DNA of 64,000 nucleotides. Source: Halosegnis longus (GTDB lineage: Archaea; Halobacteriota; Halobacteria; Halobacteriales; Haloarculaceae). The translations under genes were made by a program, and so were the position numbers. The stretch covers positions 1,240,001-1,304,000 of the forward strand of contig NZ_QKNW01000001.1 in assembly GCF_009663395.1 (NCBI RefSeq), given 5' to 3'. This document shows, piece by piece, positions 34,187-41,535 of this stretch (its first letter is position 1; each line of letters starts with the position of its first letter). The notes under the pieces are model-generated. The model searched no databases. It was not told the origin of the DNA and saw only the letters and a list, made by a program, of their open reading frames with translations.

Positions 34187-34301
34187 GATTCCTGTGTACT
34201 CCGCGGTATGCGACCCACCCGTGACGGCGGTGGCAGTTGCCGTAGCCGTCGGCCGTTTGTAGAACCCCCCCGCCAGTGAGGTGGCGTCGCTGGTGATACC
34301 A

Positions 34302-34787
34302 ATGAATATCAAGAACCTATTTGACGACGATTCGGCTGTGTCGCCAGTTATAGGCGTCATTCTGATGGTCGCTATTACGGTTATTCTTGCGGCCGTCATC
34401 GGAACGTTCGTGCTCGGACTCGGCAGTAACGTCGAGAGCGCGCCAACAACGCAGTTCTCCGTCGACTACGAGGATGCAACGACCAGTAATGGACAAATCA
34501 CCGTCACGCACGACGGTGGTGACACCATTCCGGCGAGTGCACTAAGTGTGAGCGTCGGGTCCGTTGGGACCGCTGACTTTGATGGTACCAACGGATACGG
34601 CTCTGAGAGTTCCATTACGAGTGGCAAATCCTTCGTCGTCTACACCGGCGGTGCACCTGGTAGCCCGAGTGCAAGCAACTACGGCGCTGTCAGTGGCACT
34701 CCCTCTTCTGGTGACGATGTCCGCGTCATCTGGGCACCGGAAGACAGTGACACCTCCCAGACGCTGACGACGAGCCAGGTCCCGTAA
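34302..34787 (+). CDS. Type IV pilin (archaeal PilA-type)
   Basis: 161 residues. MNIKNLFDDDSA is a short prepilin leader cut by PibD, followed by the archaeal pilin hydrophobic core VSPVIGVILMVAITVILAAV and GTFVLGLGSNV. The rest is Ser/Thr/Gly-rich with a low-charge, beta-type look, expected to be glycosylated on the pilus surface. The end DTSQTLTTSQVP resembles the next gene's end. An upstream in-frame ATG at 34281 would spoil the leader, so 34302 is chosen. Confidence 0.92.
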   Translation: MNIKNLFDDDSAVSPVIGVILMVAITVILAAVIGTFVLGLGSNVESAPTTQFSVDYEDATTSNGQITVTHDGGDTIPASALSVSVGSVGTADFDGTNGYGSESSITSGKSFVVYTGGAPGSPSASNYGAVSGTPSSGDDVRVIWAPEDSDTSQTLTTSQVP

Positions 34788-34933: not shown

Positions 34934-34999
34934 CTCAGTACTGCATTGTATAATGTAAGCGGCAGCCCCTCTCCGACGGCGGCGTCGCTGGACACAACA

Positions 35000-35410
35000 A
35001 TGAACATCAAAAACCTATTCGACGATGACTCGGCCGTTTCGCCGGTCATCGGCGTGATCCTGATGGTTGCCATCACAGTGATTCTGGCAGCCGTCATCGG
35101 CACGTTCGTGCTCGGACTCGGTAGCAACGTCCAGAGCGCGCCAACAACGCAATTCAGTTTCGACTACGACACTGGTGCCACTGAAGTAACCGTCACCCAT
35201 GACGGCGGTGACACGATTGACGCAGATGCGCTCTTCGTCAATGCTGCCGGTACCAATGAAGGATGGAATACTGGCACCGCTACGGATGTTACCGATGTGG
35301 CTTCCGGAAACTCCGCGACCTTCACCTACGGCGGTGACGAGGTCCGTGTCATCTGGCAACCGCCAAGCGGTGACACCTCCCAGACGCTTGCGACCAGCCA
35401 GACCCCGTAA
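35000..35410 (+). CDS. Type IV pilin (archaeal PilA-type), tandem paralogue
   Basis: 136 residues. Its first 44 residues are identical to those of the first pilin (leader MNIKNLFDDDSA and the whole hydrophobic core), while the C-terminal domain is shorter and diverged: TQFSFDYDTGATEVTVTHDG and a DTSQTLATSQTP end. ATG 35000 keeps the prepilin leader; a frame start at 34946 is rejected. It probably builds adhesion pili with different surface properties. Confidence 0.92.
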   Translation: MNIKNLFDDDSAVSPVIGVILMVAITVILAAVIGTFVLGLGSNVQSAPTTQFSFDYDTGATEVTVTHDGGDTIDADALFVNAAGTNEGWNTGTATDVTDVASGNSATFTYGGDEVRVIWQPPSGDTSQTLATSQTP

Positions 35411-36276: not shown

Positions 36277-36669
36277 ATGAGCAACATTCCGCAAAGCGAC
36301 GAGGAGTGGCGTGACCAACTCACCGAGGAGGAGTATGAGATTCTCCGCGAGCAGGGGACCGACCCGAAGTTCTCCGGCGAGTACATCGGCAAGGACGACG
36401 ACGGAGCCTACCGGTGTGCCGGCTGTGGCGCGCTGCTGTTCGATTCGGACACGAAGTTCGACGAGGAGGGCTCGGGGTGGCCCTCCTTCTACGACGCCGT
36501 CGAGGGCGCAATCGAGTTCCGCGAGGACGACTCGCTCGGGATGACCCGAACCGAGACGGTGTGTGCAGAGTGTGGCGGGCACCTCGGTCATGTCTTCGAG
36601 GATGGCCCCGAGCCGACGGGCAAACGCTACTGTATCAACTCCACGGCCATCGACTTCGACGACGAGTAG
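36277..36669 (+). CDS. msrB: Peptide-methionine (R)-S-oxide reductase
   Basis: 130 residues. Two zinc CxxC pairs (YRCAGCGALLF; TVCAECGGHLGHVF), SGWPSFYDAV and the catalytic cysteine in GKRYCINSTAIDF. It repairs the R epimer of methionine sulfoxide in proteins. ATG 36277; an open frame to 36223 is not conserved. No msrA lies nearby. Confidence 0.96.
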   Translation: MSNIPQSDEEWRDQLTEEEYEILREQGTDPKFSGEYIGKDDDGAYRCAGCGALLFDSDTKFDEEGSGWPSFYDAVEGAIEFREDDSLGMTRTETVCAECGGHLGHVFEDGPEPTGKRYCINSTAIDFDDE

Positions 36670-37983
36670 CTACCACCGCCGGAGCGCGCCCGCGCCGTGC
36701 TGGCTCGCCAACACGAGCACGAAGACGGCGACCGCAGAGAAGGCCGCCCCGCCGCCGAGATAAAACACCCAGTCGATGCCGACGTTGGTCTGGAGCCAGC
36801 CGCCGACGAACGGCGCGCCGATGGAGCCGGGTCGCCAAACGAACTCCCGAATCCCAAACGACGACGCGACGCCGCCTCCTTCCGTGTTCTCGCCTTCGTC
36901 CGCGAACAGCGCCATGCTCGCCGGCTCGCGGAAGGCGTCGGCGACACCCAACAGCGCGTTACACGCGATGAGGGGGAGAAATGCGGGCGAGAGATTGCCG
37001 AGCCCCGCGACCGCACTCTCGACACCGACCCACTGCACGGGTGCGGTCGAGGCCAGCCACTCCATCCCCGGAATCCCGGGTGGGAGCGCGAGCGCGGTGC
37101 CGACGCCGGGCGTGAACGGTACTCCGAGTGCGATGGCCCCGTAGCCCGCGCCACCGAGTGCGATGAACGCCGACCGACCGAATCTGTCCGAGAGTTGCCC
37201 GGTGTACGGCTGAAACAGCATGTTCGCTCCCCGCTCGGCCGTGATGACGACGCCGACGGCGAAGGGTGCATAGGCCAGCCCACCCTGTGCGACCTCGACG
37301 CCGGCGTAGATAGGGACCCACGTCCGGACGAGCGTGACGGCGACCGCGTACTGGCCGCGGAACGTCGTCAGCGTCCGGAGTCGTTCGTTCACCGACAGCG
37401 ACGTGAACGGGAACCCCTCGATACGGACGGGGTCGGGCCGAACGAACAGGACGACGGCGACCATCGAGACCACCAACAGCGCGACGAGCAGCGCGTACAC
37501 CGTCTGGAAGCCGTACACCTCGTACAACGCTCCGACCGAGAGCGCGCCGACGATACCCGAGGCGAGCCGCGCTGCGTTCGCCTTCCCGATGTGGTTGGCG
37601 CGTTCTCCCGTCGGCGCGAGTTCGCCCACGAGTGAGAGTGAGAGCAGCGACGCGCCCGTCGCGGCAAAGCCCTGCATCGCCCGCGCGCCGACGAACTGCC
37701 ACGACCCGGAGACGAAGGCGAAGGCCGTGTACGCGAGCGCCGCGATACCGATGGCGACGACGAGTGCCGTCCGCTTGTCGCCGGCGTCACCGCCCCACGC
37801 GAACGGGACGATGGCGAGCGTTGAGGCGAGCGTATACCCCGACGTGAACAACCCAAGCAACAGCGCGGACGGGTCGTAGAGATTGATGTACGTCGGCAGC
37901 AGCGTCGTGAGGGCGGCCAGCCCGAAGCCGCCGGCAAAGCGGACGAGATACAGACTCAGAAACTGGAGCCGGTCGTCGTTCAC
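36670..37983 (-). CDS. MFS transporter
   Basis: 437 residues from GTG 37983, twelve helices. It starts DRLQFLSLYLVRFAGGFGLA; loop motifs GGDAGDKRTALVV and GQLSDRFGRSAFIALGGAG are the classic DxxGRR-like loops 2-3 and 8-9. Substrate unknown. The start lies 22 bases after the brp stop on the same strand, so it may be the last gene of the bop-crtY-brp operon. Confidence 0.9.
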   Translation of the reverse strand: MNDDRLQFLSLYLVRFAGGFGLAALTTLLPTYINLYDPSALLLGLFTSGYTLASTLAIVPFAWGGDAGDKRTALVVAIGIAALAYTAFAFVSGSWQFVGARAMQGFAATGASLLSLSLVGELAPTGERANHIGKANAARLASGIVGALSVGALYEVYGFQTVYALLVALLVVSMVAVVLFVRPDPVRIEGFPFTSLSVNERLRTLTTFRGQYAVAVTLVRTWVPIYAGVEVAQGGLAYAPFAVGVVITAERGANMLFQPYTGQLSDRFGRSAFIALGGAGYGAIALGVPFTPGVGTALALPPGIPGMEWLASTAPVQWVGVESAVAGLGNLSPAFLPLIACNALLGVADAFREPASMALFADEGENTEGGGVASSFGIREFVWRPGSIGAPFVGGWLQTNVGIDWVFYLGGGAAFSAVAVFVLVLASQHGAGALRRW

Positions 37984-38005
37984 ACCGACGGTTTTCCCGT
38001 CCGCC

Positions 38006-39046
38006 TCAAGCGCGTTCCGATACGGGCCGCGTCCAGACCCCCTGTTTCGCGTCCATCCACGCCACGACGCCGACGTGTGGAAGCGTCAGCGCCGCAATCA
38101 AGACGAGATACAGCCCGACGACGCCGGCGGCGGTCGTCGGCGGCTCCGGCACCAGCAGGTAGAACACGCCGAGGAAGGCGAGCGAAACGGCCGTCAGGGG
38201 TGCAGCTTGCCACGCGAACCGCCGGAGTGGCGTCCACAGGTCGCCGGTCGCAAACGCCGCGACCGACGGCTCGTCGGCCAGTGCTAGCCGGCCCACGTGT
38301 CTGAGCGCGTGCCACAGACAGAAGTAGAGCCCGACGGCAAACAGCGGTGGCACCGTCGTGAAAAACGCCCCGAGCAGCAGCGTCTCGCCGGCGTCGCGCC
38401 GCCACCCGTCGCCCGCCCGCCGCCAGTAGCCGACGCCCAAATGAACGGCTACGAGCGCACCGAATCCCACGCCGACCGCGAGCCGGCTCTCGGGTGTGAA
38501 CACGGGTGCGAGCAGCGATGCGTCGCCGGCGAAGGGAGCGACGAGGAGTTGCGCCACGCGCTCGTACTGGGTCGGGAACGCGACAAGCGGGACCAGCATC
38601 GGGAAGCCCCCGCGAACGACCGCGGCCAGCGCGCGTTGTGGCACCGAACACAGGTGATTCGCCCCGGCAAAGGCGACGAGCGCGTGCATATCACCCTGTC
38701 CCCAGTGGGCCAGCGTCAGGAGGATGAACGAGACGAACCCGACGGTCGGCGCGAGAAACCACACCACGGTGTAGCCGACCCCGAGGAGGAGATACACGCC
38801 ACCGACGACGAGGGCACCGCGCAGGGTCGAGACGGACCCCAGCCGTCCGGGAACGAGGTGGTCGATTGCGCCGTGGGGAAGTCCGACGAGCACGACGGAG
38901 ACGACGAGCGGCACCAGCTGAAGCGACTGGGGGACCTGCGGGTCGAAGACGAACGCGAGCGCGAGCAGGCCACAGCAGGCCCAGCCGGGCCACAAGGTGA
39001 GCCGACGGACCGTCTCCTCACCACCGGCAGGCGGAAACAGCGTCAT
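38006..39046 (-). CDS. brp: Beta-carotene 15,15'-dioxygenase (Brp/Blh family)
   Basis: 346-residue membrane enzyme that cleaves beta-carotene into two retinals. The conserved histidine motifs are visible: VGLPHGAIDHLVPGRL, LTLAHWGQGDMHAL, CLWHALRHVGRLAL and LTLPHVGVVAWMD. Start ATG 39046 overlaps the end of crtY by four bases. It supplies retinal for the bacteriorhodopsin encoded two genes upstream. Confidence 0.93.
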   Translation of the reverse strand: MTLFPPAGGEETVRRLTLWPGWACCGLLALAFVFDPQVPQSLQLVPLVVSVVLVGLPHGAIDHLVPGRLGSVSTLRGALVVGGVYLLLGVGYTVVWFLAPTVGFVSFILLTLAHWGQGDMHALVAFAGANHLCSVPQRALAAVVRGGFPMLVPLVAFPTQYERVAQLLVAPFAGDASLLAPVFTPESRLAVGVGFGALVAVHLGVGYWRRAGDGWRRDAGETLLLGAFFTTVPPLFAVGLYFCLWHALRHVGRLALADEPSVAAFATGDLWTPLRRFAWQAAPLTAVSLAFLGVFYLLVPEPPTTAAGVVGLYLVLIAALTLPHVGVVAWMDAKQGVWTRPVSERA

Positions 39047-39786
39047 GGTACGGTGTCGATGCCGAGTTGGTCGGTCACCCACAGCCAGAGGACGAGCCCC
39101 TGGACGACGAACAGATTCGTGAAGAAGAAAAACAGCGCCTCCTCGATGGGGAGACCGGCGAGGGTCACGCCGGTCGTGTAGGTCGGCGACAGCTTCCAGA
39201 TGCCGAGCGTAATGGCGACCATGTCGGCCGCACACAGATACACCGTCGGGAGTCCGACGCCGATGACGACCGTCTTGGCGTGCTCGTACAGATACGGCCA
39301 GCCGAACGCCCACTGAATCGCGAGCACCGGGCCGGCCCACCCGAGTAGCGCACCCAGATACGTCGTCTGGCCGCCGCCGAGATACAGCCAGATGCCGACG
39401 CCACTAATCGTGAAGCCGGCGAGCGCACCGATCAGTCGGTTCGACAGCGACACCGCGAGCGGCCGGTCGGTCGTCTCGACGAACTGGTACAGCCACAGCG
39501 CCGTGATGAACGGCTGGACGAGGATGAAGAGCAACTCCTCGACGGGGATGTTGACGAACCGCGCGAGGACGACCCCTTCGCCGTACGACCAGACGCCCTT
39601 CCCGATGAGGAGAATCTCCCACGGGATGGTGTAGGTGAGCGCGATGGTCGCGAGGATGACGATACCAGCCCACTGGACCCGAGCGCGAGGGAGTCGGAAT
39701 TGGCGCACCCACACCGACAAGAGGAGGATGAACAGGAACGGGGCCAGAAAGACGAGGTGAAACCCCAGATACGAGGGAACGGCCAT
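39043..39786 (-). CDS. crtY: Lycopene beta-cyclase (CrtYc-CrtYd fusion type)
   Basis: 247 residues, seven hydrophobic helices, made of two repeated lycopene cyclase domains. Each has the marker PxEE: VNIPVEELLFILVQPFITAL and LAGLPIEEALFFFFTNLFVV. It turns lycopene into beta-carotene, the substrate of Brp. It starts 51 bases after the bop stop and overlaps brp by ATGA. Order bop-crtY-brp follows the reverse of pathway logic, pump to pigment. Confidence 0.93.
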   Translation of the reverse strand: MAVPSYLGFHLVFLAPFLFILLLSVWVRQFRLPRARVQWAGIVILATIALTYTIPWEILLIGKGVWSYGEGVVLARFVNIPVEELLFILVQPFITALWLYQFVETTDRPLAVSLSNRLIGALAGFTISGVGIWLYLGGGQTTYLGALLGWAGPVLAIQWAFGWPYLYEHAKTVVIGVGLPTVYLCAADMVAITLGIWKLSPTYTTGVTLAGLPIEEALFFFFTNLFVVQGLVLWLWVTDQLGIDTVP

Positions 39787-39837
39787 ACGGCTGGTCGTCG
39801 TGGAAGAAATAAAAAGACGGCTGTCTGCGGTGACTCG

Positions 39838-40566
39838 TCAGTCGGCGGCCTGTGCGGACGTGGACGCGTCTTCCAGTGCGTCACGGCTGCGCAGCAGGAC
39901 GAAGCCGAAGCCGACCTTCGCAGTCACGTCGAGGATGGCGAAGGCGATGGTCTCCTGTGTGAGCGTCAGTGCGCCGATGGTGGATTCGGTGCCGAGCACC
40001 CAGACGACGGGGTACAGCGACCACAACACCAGAATCATCGTGCGGAGCTTCGAGAACGTCGCCGCGACGGCGCTGGACTTGCGTGCCGCCTGTCCACTCA
40101 GCGTGCGGACGAGGAAGAACAGCACAGCAATCATGAAGGCAGTGCTGATTCCCCACCAGAGCATACGGTTCAGCGCGCTGGAGCGCGCGAGTGCACCTGC
40201 GAGACCCGTCAGAATCATCGCAACGTCGAGACCGACGAGCGTCGCGATGGTGTTGCGGTCTGCGCCCGCAAGGAGTGCGATGTCGAGCAGGAGCAGCGGC
40301 GTGGTGAACAGCCAGTCAGCGTAGCGTGCCCAGTAGATATCGAGCGTCTCACCACCCACCGGCACCTCGATCAGGCCATAGCCCGTTGCCATACTGAAGT
40401 ACGACACGGACGCGATGGCCGTGATGAAGATCGTGATGATGTAGAACTCCTGTTTTCGTTCGTTCTTCTCCCCCCAGCCCATCGCGATGAACGCGACGGT
40501 ACCGAGTGCCATGAGGGCCGTTCCGACCCACAGGATTAGCGACTGCGTATCCGTTGGTTGGACCAT
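39838..40566 (-). CDS. bop: Bacteriorhodopsin-type light-driven proton pump
   Basis: 242 residues, seven helices. Helix C YWARYADWLFTTPLLLLDIA carries Arg81, proton acceptor Asp84 and donor Asp95 (Asp85 and Asp96 in the classic protein). Asp213 and retinal lysine Lys217 lie in ILDVTAKVGFGFVLLRSR. The proton-release glutamates Glu194 and Glu205 are kept. Leu92 at the tuning site suggests green absorption. All residues needed for outward proton pumping are present. ATG 40566 begins MVQPTDTQSL. Confidence 0.97.
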   Translation of the reverse strand: MVQPTDTQSLILWVGTALMALGTVAFIAMGWGEKNERKQEFYIITIFITAIASVSYFSMATGYGLIEVPVGGETLDIYWARYADWLFTTPLLLLDIALLAGADRNTIATLVGLDVAMILTGLAGALARSSALNRMLWWGISTAFMIAVLFFLVRTLSGQAARKSSAVAATFSKLRTMILVLWSLYPVVWVLGTESTIGALTLTQETIAFAILDVTAKVGFGFVLLRSRDALEDASTSAQAAD

Positions 40567-40596
40567 AATCCACTTCGTACTAATACCGGGTGGCCC

Positions 40597-40624
40597 ATAA
40601 TAACACGCCAAAAAAGTTATATGG
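40597..40624 (-). promoter_or_regulatory. AT-rich promoter region of bop
   Basis: On the minus strand the upstream sequence reads CCCATATAACTTTTTTGGCG then TGTTATTATGGG. Two TATA-like boxes lie about 35 and 52 bases before the ATG. I cannot see a convincing Bat-type upstream activating site by eye. It is the most AT-rich spot between the divergent bop and ubaA. Confidence 0.4.
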
Positions 40625-40731
40625 GAATACGAATTCTCTCTGTGGGACACTGCTCTGTGAGTGCCGGGAGACGGTCCCGTCGTCGGGGTGTCGGGGGACG
40701 CGTTTAGGTGGTCGTCGCCCCGAGTCGAGGT

Positions 40732-41535
40732 ATGTCACTCTCGCTCGACGCCACCCAGCTCGACCGCTACTCCAGACACATCATCATGGACGAAATCGGG
40801 CCCGAGGGACAGTCGACTCTCCTCGACTCGCGGGTGCTGTGTATCGGTGCGGGCGGGCTCGGTTCGCCGGTCATCCAGTACCTCGCCGCCGCGGGCGTCG
40901 GCACGCTCGGTATCGCCGACGACGACGTCGTGGAGCGGTCGAACCTCCAGCGGCAGATCATCCACGCCGACGCCGACGTCGGAACCCCGAAGGTGGACTC
41001 CGCACGCGGCTACGTCGAGCGACTCAACCCCGACGTGACCGTCGACCCCCACGAGGTGCGCGTCACCAGCGAGAACGTCGAGTCGCTCATCGCCGACTAC
41101 GACATCGTCGTCGACGGCTCCGACAACTTCGCGACCCGGTATCTCGTCAACGACGCCTGTACGCTCGCCGGGATTCCCTTCACGCACGGCGCGATTCTCC
41201 GATTCGAGGGACAGGTGACCACCTTCGAGGGCGGGGACGGTCCCTGCTACCGGTGTCTGTTTCCCGAAGCGCCCGAACCCGGGACCGTTCCGAACTGCGC
41301 CGAGGTCGGGGTCCTCGGTGTCCTGCCGGGCGTCGTCGGCTCGATTCAGGCGACGGAGACGCTGAAGCTCGCGCTCGAGTACGGTGACACCCTCGACGGC
41401 CGACTGCTCTTTTACGACGCCGGCGACACCAGCTTCGACGAGGTACCCATCCAGCGCCGGCCCGACTGTCCGGTCTGTGGCGACGGTATCGACTCCGTCC
41501 ACGAGGTGGAGTACACCGACAGCTGTGCGATTTAA
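40732..41535 (+). CDS. ubaA: E1-like activating enzyme UbaA (SAMP activation / sulfur carrier)
   Basis: 267 residues of the MoeB/ThiF/E1 family. The adenylate fold VLCIGAGGLGSPVIQYLAAA, DDDVVERSNLQRQIIHADAD, VDGSDNFATRYLVNDACT, zinc CxxC pairs CYRC and CPVC, and the candidate active cysteine in VPNCAEVGVLGVLPGVVGS. Haloarchaeal UbaA adenylates small ubiquitin-like SAMPs for protein conjugation and for tRNA/molybdopterin sulfur transfer. A JAMM protease gene lies one gene away. Confidence 0.93.
   Translation: MSLSLDATQLDRYSRHIIMDEIGPEGQSTLLDSRVLCIGAGGLGSPVIQYLAAAGVGTLGIADDDVVERSNLQRQIIHADADVGTPKVDSARGYVERLNPDVTVDPHEVRVTSENVESLIADYDIVVDGSDNFATRYLVNDACTLAGIPFTHGAILRFEGQVTTFEGGDGPCYRCLFPEAPEPGTVPNCAEVGVLGVLPGVVGSIQATETLKLALEYGDTLDGRLLFYDAGDTSFDEVPIQRRPDCPVCGDGIDSVHEVEYTDSCAI

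Follow-up and report, generated by a model that had tools for sequence, protein, structure and literature searches.

The transporter gene behind the retinal-pump cassette of Halosegnis longus is probably an older neighbour of ubaA and not a functional part of the cassette

In the retinal-pump pathway, CrtY converts lycopene to beta-carotene, which Brp cleaves to retinal; combined with bacterio-opsin, this retinal yields a proton pump driven by light. The haloarchaeal bop loci described in PMC7755889 include bop with crtY and brp/blh between the V-type ATPase B and D genes. The bop region of Halobacterium salinarum contains brp-bat, brz-brb and crtB1 (PMC3184054). Here we analyzed a 64,000-nucleotide stretch (the window) of the 2.77-Mb haloarchaeal genome of Halosegnis longus, on whose minus strand bop, crtY and brp are followed by a gene of the major facilitator superfamily (MFS). 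The window has the clustering of pump, lycopene cyclase and dioxygenase in common with the loci of PMC7755889; unlike the V-type ATPase loci there, its cassette stands head-to-head with ubaA, as in 10 other genomes of the family (genera g1, g6 and g21). With the H. salinarum region it shares a bop gene with its own upstream control region and retinal genes nearby, whereas bat is not among the six genes scanned here; small open reading frames (ORFs) of the size of brz (60 aa) were not examined. Neither the ubaA site nor this MFS gene came up in the literature passages on haloarchaeal bop loci that we consulted, the search having gone no wider. The ubaA site represents a further place for the retinal cassette, in three related genera, beside the published V-type ATPase site.

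Gene order and trees in relatives make it quite probable that the MFS gene does not belong functionally to the cassette, but is an older neighbour of ubaA that keeps its own job, the cassette having been inserted once between the two. In support of this reading, the MFS gene and the cassette each occur at the ubaA site without the other. Here, G000 denotes the window's genome, g1 its genus (six genomes, G000 and G083 to G087) and the other g numbers further genera of the family. Among the 101 family genomes with both bop and ubaA, the two genes were head-to-head in 11 (6/6 in g1, 4/4 in g6, and G143 of g21), and the next-nearest pair was 16 kb apart. Within g1, brp is followed by the MFS gene in G000, G084 and G083, and by msrB in G085, G086 and G087. 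All four g6 genomes carry the cassette at ubaA and no MFS homologue at E ≤ 1e-30. Conversely, the MFS gene lies 0.9 to 1.3 kb from ubaA in five of the eight g7 genomes (G051, G053, G054, G056 and G057). The intervening genes are a member of the EthD family and a small one, as judged by family tests at one locus and by clustering at the rest. In g9, the MFS gene of G066 lies in the interval from ubaA to msrB together with a subtilase-type gene, and a broken MFS remnant is left near ubaA in G067 (L123:4154-4651). Both genera lack the cassette at ubaA.

Surveys of the MFS gene and brp across genomes pointed the same way. With homologues called at E ≤ 1e-60 (and at E ≤ 1e-30 for a looser family count), the MFS gene was found in 48 and 56, respectively, of the 146 family genomes. 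No brp was found, among the matches listed, in 11 of the 48. Thirty-six of the remaining 37 were compared (G068 was omitted), again using the brp copies among the matches listed: 32 of them have the two genes on separate contigs or at a distance exceeding 20 kb, and only four have them together, with the matched parts separated by 68 nt (G000), 68 nt (G084), 71 nt (G083) and 1.0 kb (G143). The four-gene order with its 22-nt gap was seen outside the window's genome in G084 and G083 only; in G143 (L104), a gene for a halocyanin-like copper protein lies between brp and the MFS gene on the opposite strand (L104:8920-9648). Of 391 genomes drawn from the whole class, 208 had an MFS homologue. Outside the family, where brp was searched in the best 127 of 177 MFS-bearing genomes, it was missing in 61, and none of the 66 genomes with both genes paired them within 50 kb, the nearest pair being 54 kb apart. 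In total, the two genes were linked in 4 of the 102 compared genomes that carry both, each time at the ubaA site, and no linkage conserved beyond that one site was found among the 102. Elsewhere, the MFS gene was near or next to ileS in two g3 and two g12 loci. Since the MFS gene is often present without brp, its dependence on retinal is unlikely. The original prediction had allowed both for a passenger and for a transporter exporting or importing something used under phototrophy; the first possibility gains support from these distributions, and the second, given homologues that are common without brp and a linkage confined to one site, does not. A tempting candidate for a transporter linked to retinal or phototrophy is thereby removed as unlikely.

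The MFS protein itself matches PF07690 well above its cut-off of 33.4 bits, but stays below every specific NCBIfam cut-off, and no solved relative was found by sequence at E ≤ 0.01. DRxGR and RxxQG motifs, which we presume to carry their usual meaning for such transporters, are invariant across 18 homologues. A structure model built from two sequences was unusable (mean pLDDT, 31.5). With a dN/dS of 0.05 against G084 and 0.23 against G083, the gene is under purifying selection and is therefore probably functional.

In the order of events that we propose, an old ubaA-MFS neighbourhood, to which both the trees and the gene order point, would have come first. A single insertion of the cassette between these two genes, predating the split of g1, g9, g6 and g21, would then have placed brp ahead of the MFS gene. 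Later, g9 would have lost the cassette, g6 would have lost the MFS gene, and g1 would have lost it on two occasions, with a separate explanation needed for g15. The MFS gene would now probably ride on the crtY-brp transcript and be kept by purifying selection for its own job, perhaps small-molecule export (a guess at the family level), and it can be missing where the cassette is retained. Such a history would illustrate how a gene comes to mimic an operon member after a cassette lands upstream of it.

Several trees bear on this history. Those bop genes that are linked to ubaA fall into a single clade (99/95), composed of g1 and g6+g21. A midpoint-rooted tree of ubaA and uvrB from 17 genomes pairs g1 with g9 (100/100) and g21 with g6 (99/96) and leaves g7 outside (94/93). 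In a 35-row ubaA tree, g7 is likewise excluded from a group (100/97) within which g1, g9, g6, g21 and g15 are not resolved. In the MFS tree, the g1 and g9 copies cluster together (100/99). In G086, the 86-nt gap between brp and msrB contains, in the right place, a weak local match to the 3' end of the MFS gene (2 of 500 shuffles were as good), so that the sequence leans toward loss of the MFS gene over gain.

A number of observations weigh against the proposed history. The MFS tree leaves G143 and g15 unresolved, and rooting it with the L153 outgroup, a distant paralogue, puts g7 in a basal position. The choice between insertion and loss of the cassette in g7 depends on midpoint rooting and on the 94/93 branches. 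Although g15 belongs to the unresolved ubaA group, neither cassette nor MFS gene was present at ubaA in its three sampled genomes, and further losses would be needed. The MFS-ubaA distance in g7 and g9 is 0.9 to 4.4 kb, with other genes intervening, and a global alignment of the G086 gap with the MFS gene is scattered, only the local one fitting the 3' end. Finally, the 22-nt spacing has been kept and no promoter box is visible, as in a functional operon, despite an MFS dS of 0.69 between G000 and G083.

The same spacing and missing box count in favor of secondary co-option, in which a chance MFS neighbour would have become the fourth gene of a crtY-brp-MFS transcript in Halosegnis, using the light-driven proton gradient or moving a retinoid or carotenoid by-product. 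The spacer between brp and the MFS gene measures 22 nt in all three species (G000, G084 and G083). The best AT octamer before the MFS start has 5/8 A/T, the commonest value in random windows here (1041 of 2000), compared with 8/8 at the TATA-box position of crtY (33 of 2000). No promoter box is thus visible before the MFS gene by this test, which is a weak one, as the ubaA octamer also reaches only 5/8. A hairpin in the spacer (z of -1.5, -2.4 and -0.9 in the three species) is at best weak. Two terminator-like sites were found against 2.8 expected, and a sigma-70 promoter scan, a method unsuited to archaea, returned no site. Because the 22-nt gap is kept and no promoter is visible, co-transcription of the MFS gene with brp, from the crtY-brp side, is likely, the two features being suggestive only. 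The original prediction had named lack of a conserved brp linkage and a separate MFS promoter as findings that would speak against a joint cassette; the former is largely what we observed, whereas the latter was not seen. Co-option could account for the spacing, the lack of a box and the purifying selection relative to G084, but it sits poorly with a cassette lacking the MFS gene in three of the six genus genomes and with MFS homologues that are common where brp is missing. We regard it as unlikely.

A somewhat more doubtful alternative is that the full order of ubaA, bop-crtY-brp, MFS and msrB predates g7 as well, and that g7 lost the cassette, in which case the adjacency would be ancient yet still not functional. 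Presence and absence alone are compatible with this, and a loss of the cassette in g9 has to be assumed under the single-insertion history, too. However, G058 of g7 carries its cassette near the V-type ATPase B and D genes, with a bop outside the ubaA-linked clade, and more events would be needed. A conserved four-gene phototrophy operon, with the MFS protein required for retinal supply or use, has order and spacing in three Halosegnis-type genomes and the G143 gene 1 kb after brp in its favor, but was rejected as having next to no probability by the class-wide surveys, the genes being apart in 98 of the 102 genomes with both (36 in the family, 66 outside), g6 and half of g1 having the cassette but no MFS gene, and g7 and g9 having the MFS gene but no linked cassette. 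A recent arrival of the MFS gene in Halosegnis only was likewise disfavored, given the copies near ubaA in g7, g9 and G143 and the single clade of g1 and g9 copies.

Judged by protein families and residues, bop-crtY-brp itself is an ordinary haloarchaeal retinal-pump cassette. The original prediction's reading of it as a retinal cassette is supported; its coordinates, strand, gene order, crtY/brp overlap and short gaps, including the start of the MFS gene 22 bases after brp, also proved right. All four proteins exceeded their Pfam cut-offs (for bop, 221.4 bits against 24.6 for PF01036). The pump motifs place R81, D84, D95, E194, E205, D213 and K217 and align with those of deltarhodopsin and cruxrhodopsin-3. 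Among these residues, we take the acceptor and donor aspartates, the release glutamates and the Schiff-base lysine to be equivalent to D85, D96, E194, E204 and K216 of bacteriorhodopsin. Deltarhodopsin (PDB 4fbz) is the closest solved relative by sequence, and no function-relevant difference between it and the window's pump was noted. The genome also holds, outside the locus, two genes of the phytoene/squalene-synthase family (crtI was not searched), five BAT-domain matches and a second rhodopsin (L002), which is 34% identical and which, from a motif, we presume to resemble halorhodopsin. Among named organisms, Halosegnis rubeus F17-44 is the closest relative, with a brp identity of 91%.

To place this cassette among its relatives, we compared 97 family genomes of 20 genera for which both bop (at E ≤ 1e-50) and brp coordinates were among the matches listed. 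The two genes were no more than 3 kb apart in at least 53 of these, in 17 of the 20 genera, and the cassette is therefore not a chance arrangement; among the matches listed, they were not within 3 kb in the other 44, mainly in g3 (28), g13 (7) and g10 (4). We inspected 28 bop loci, the window plus 27 others that form a non-random set, many having been chosen for a nearby brp. The order bop, crtY, brp on one strand was found in 24 of them, in 12 genera, the exceptions being L130, L145 and L151, with bop alone, and L153; in L103, crtY is split into two pieces.

The four genes span 3.9 kb, with a 51-nt gap between bop and crtY and a 4-nt overlap of crtY and brp. The start of ubaA lies 165 nt upstream of bop, and the end of msrB abuts the MFS gene (Table 1). 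The gap between bop and crtY contains TTTTT in 6/6 genus genomes, and its T-rich stretch, TTTTTATTT, is a candidate bop terminator, crtY TATA box, or both.

Table 1. Genes and spacers of the retinal cassette and its flanks, numbered from the first letter of the window
Feature	Position	Strand	Support
bop, bacteriorhodopsin-type proton pump, 242 aa, deltarhodopsin-like	39838..40566	-	PF01036 1.4e-65; 4fbz 4.9e-80; RYADWLFTTPLLLLD and DVTAK motifs
crtY, haloarchaeal lycopene cyclase, 247 aa	39043..39786	-	PF18916 32.4 bits (cut-off 27); TIGR03462 127.9 bits (cut-off 39.4), two stretches
brp, beta-carotene 15,15'-dioxygenase, Brp/Blh family, 346 aa	38006..39046	-	PF15461 256.6 bits, 4.1e-76; TIGR03753 239.7 bits
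MFS transporter, 437 aa, GTG start	36670..37983	-	PF07690 MFS_1 106.1 bits, 2.3e-30; widespread haloarchaeal family
ubaA, SAMP-activating E1-like enzyme; divergent from bop and used to anchor the site	40732..41535	+	NF047750 483 bits
msrB, methionine-R-sulfoxide reductase, converging on the MFS gene	36277..36669	+	TIGR00357 160.7 bits
bop upstream region, TATTAT box	40567..40680	-	box identical in 6/6 genus genomes (alignment)
bop-crtY gap, T-rich stretch TTTTTATTT	39787..39837	-	21-29 nt before crtY start
brp-MFS spacer, 22 nt	37984..38005	-	same length in three species; short G+C hairpin, no AT-rich box

Other transporters near the cassette were sought at 64 loci as hydrophobic ORFs, 250 to 650 aa long, no more than 3.5 kb away from a bop, brp or crtY match. 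This yielded 21 ORFs, of which 10 were scanned against Pfam; the other 11 include four homologues of the MFS gene (L003, L099, L100 and L104). An ORF of Natronorubrum bangense (L017:6928-8169), whose start is 76 nt past the matched portion of brp, proved to be TctA-like and unrelated to the MFS protein. The MFS gene after bop in G070 of g10 (L153:3580-4875) encodes a distant paralogue (29% identical); it comes about 100 nt after bop and shares its strand, and crtY runs in the opposite direction there.

At loci L127, L145, L147, L149, L155 and L157 of the sampled relatives, V-type ATPase genes (B, D or both) are found close to bop or to the cassette. In g11, the cassette is divergent from thiI, a gene of tRNA 4-thiouridine synthesis (Pfam-tested in L133, the others assigned by similarity), in all three loci viewed (L133, L135 and L138), with a small gene between in one. 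In bacteria, 4-thiouridine in tRNA is sensitive to near-UV light. The divergent placement of bop cassettes from sulfur-transfer genes (ubaA in g1, g6 and g21, thiI in g11) might conceivably reflect shared control, tying light-energy capture to tRNA thiolation, e.g., via this nucleoside, or to protein sampylation, but we consider this highly improbable.

As a separate observation, a contig labelled Candidatus Nanohalarchaeota (L030:5233-13004) carries crtY, brp, a rhodopsin gene, a Na/H exchanger gene and V-type ATPase D and B genes; this could be real or a binning error. Elsewhere in the window, the tandem ORFs at 34281-34787 and 34946-35410, presumably archaeal pilins, have a near-identical N-terminal stretch in common.

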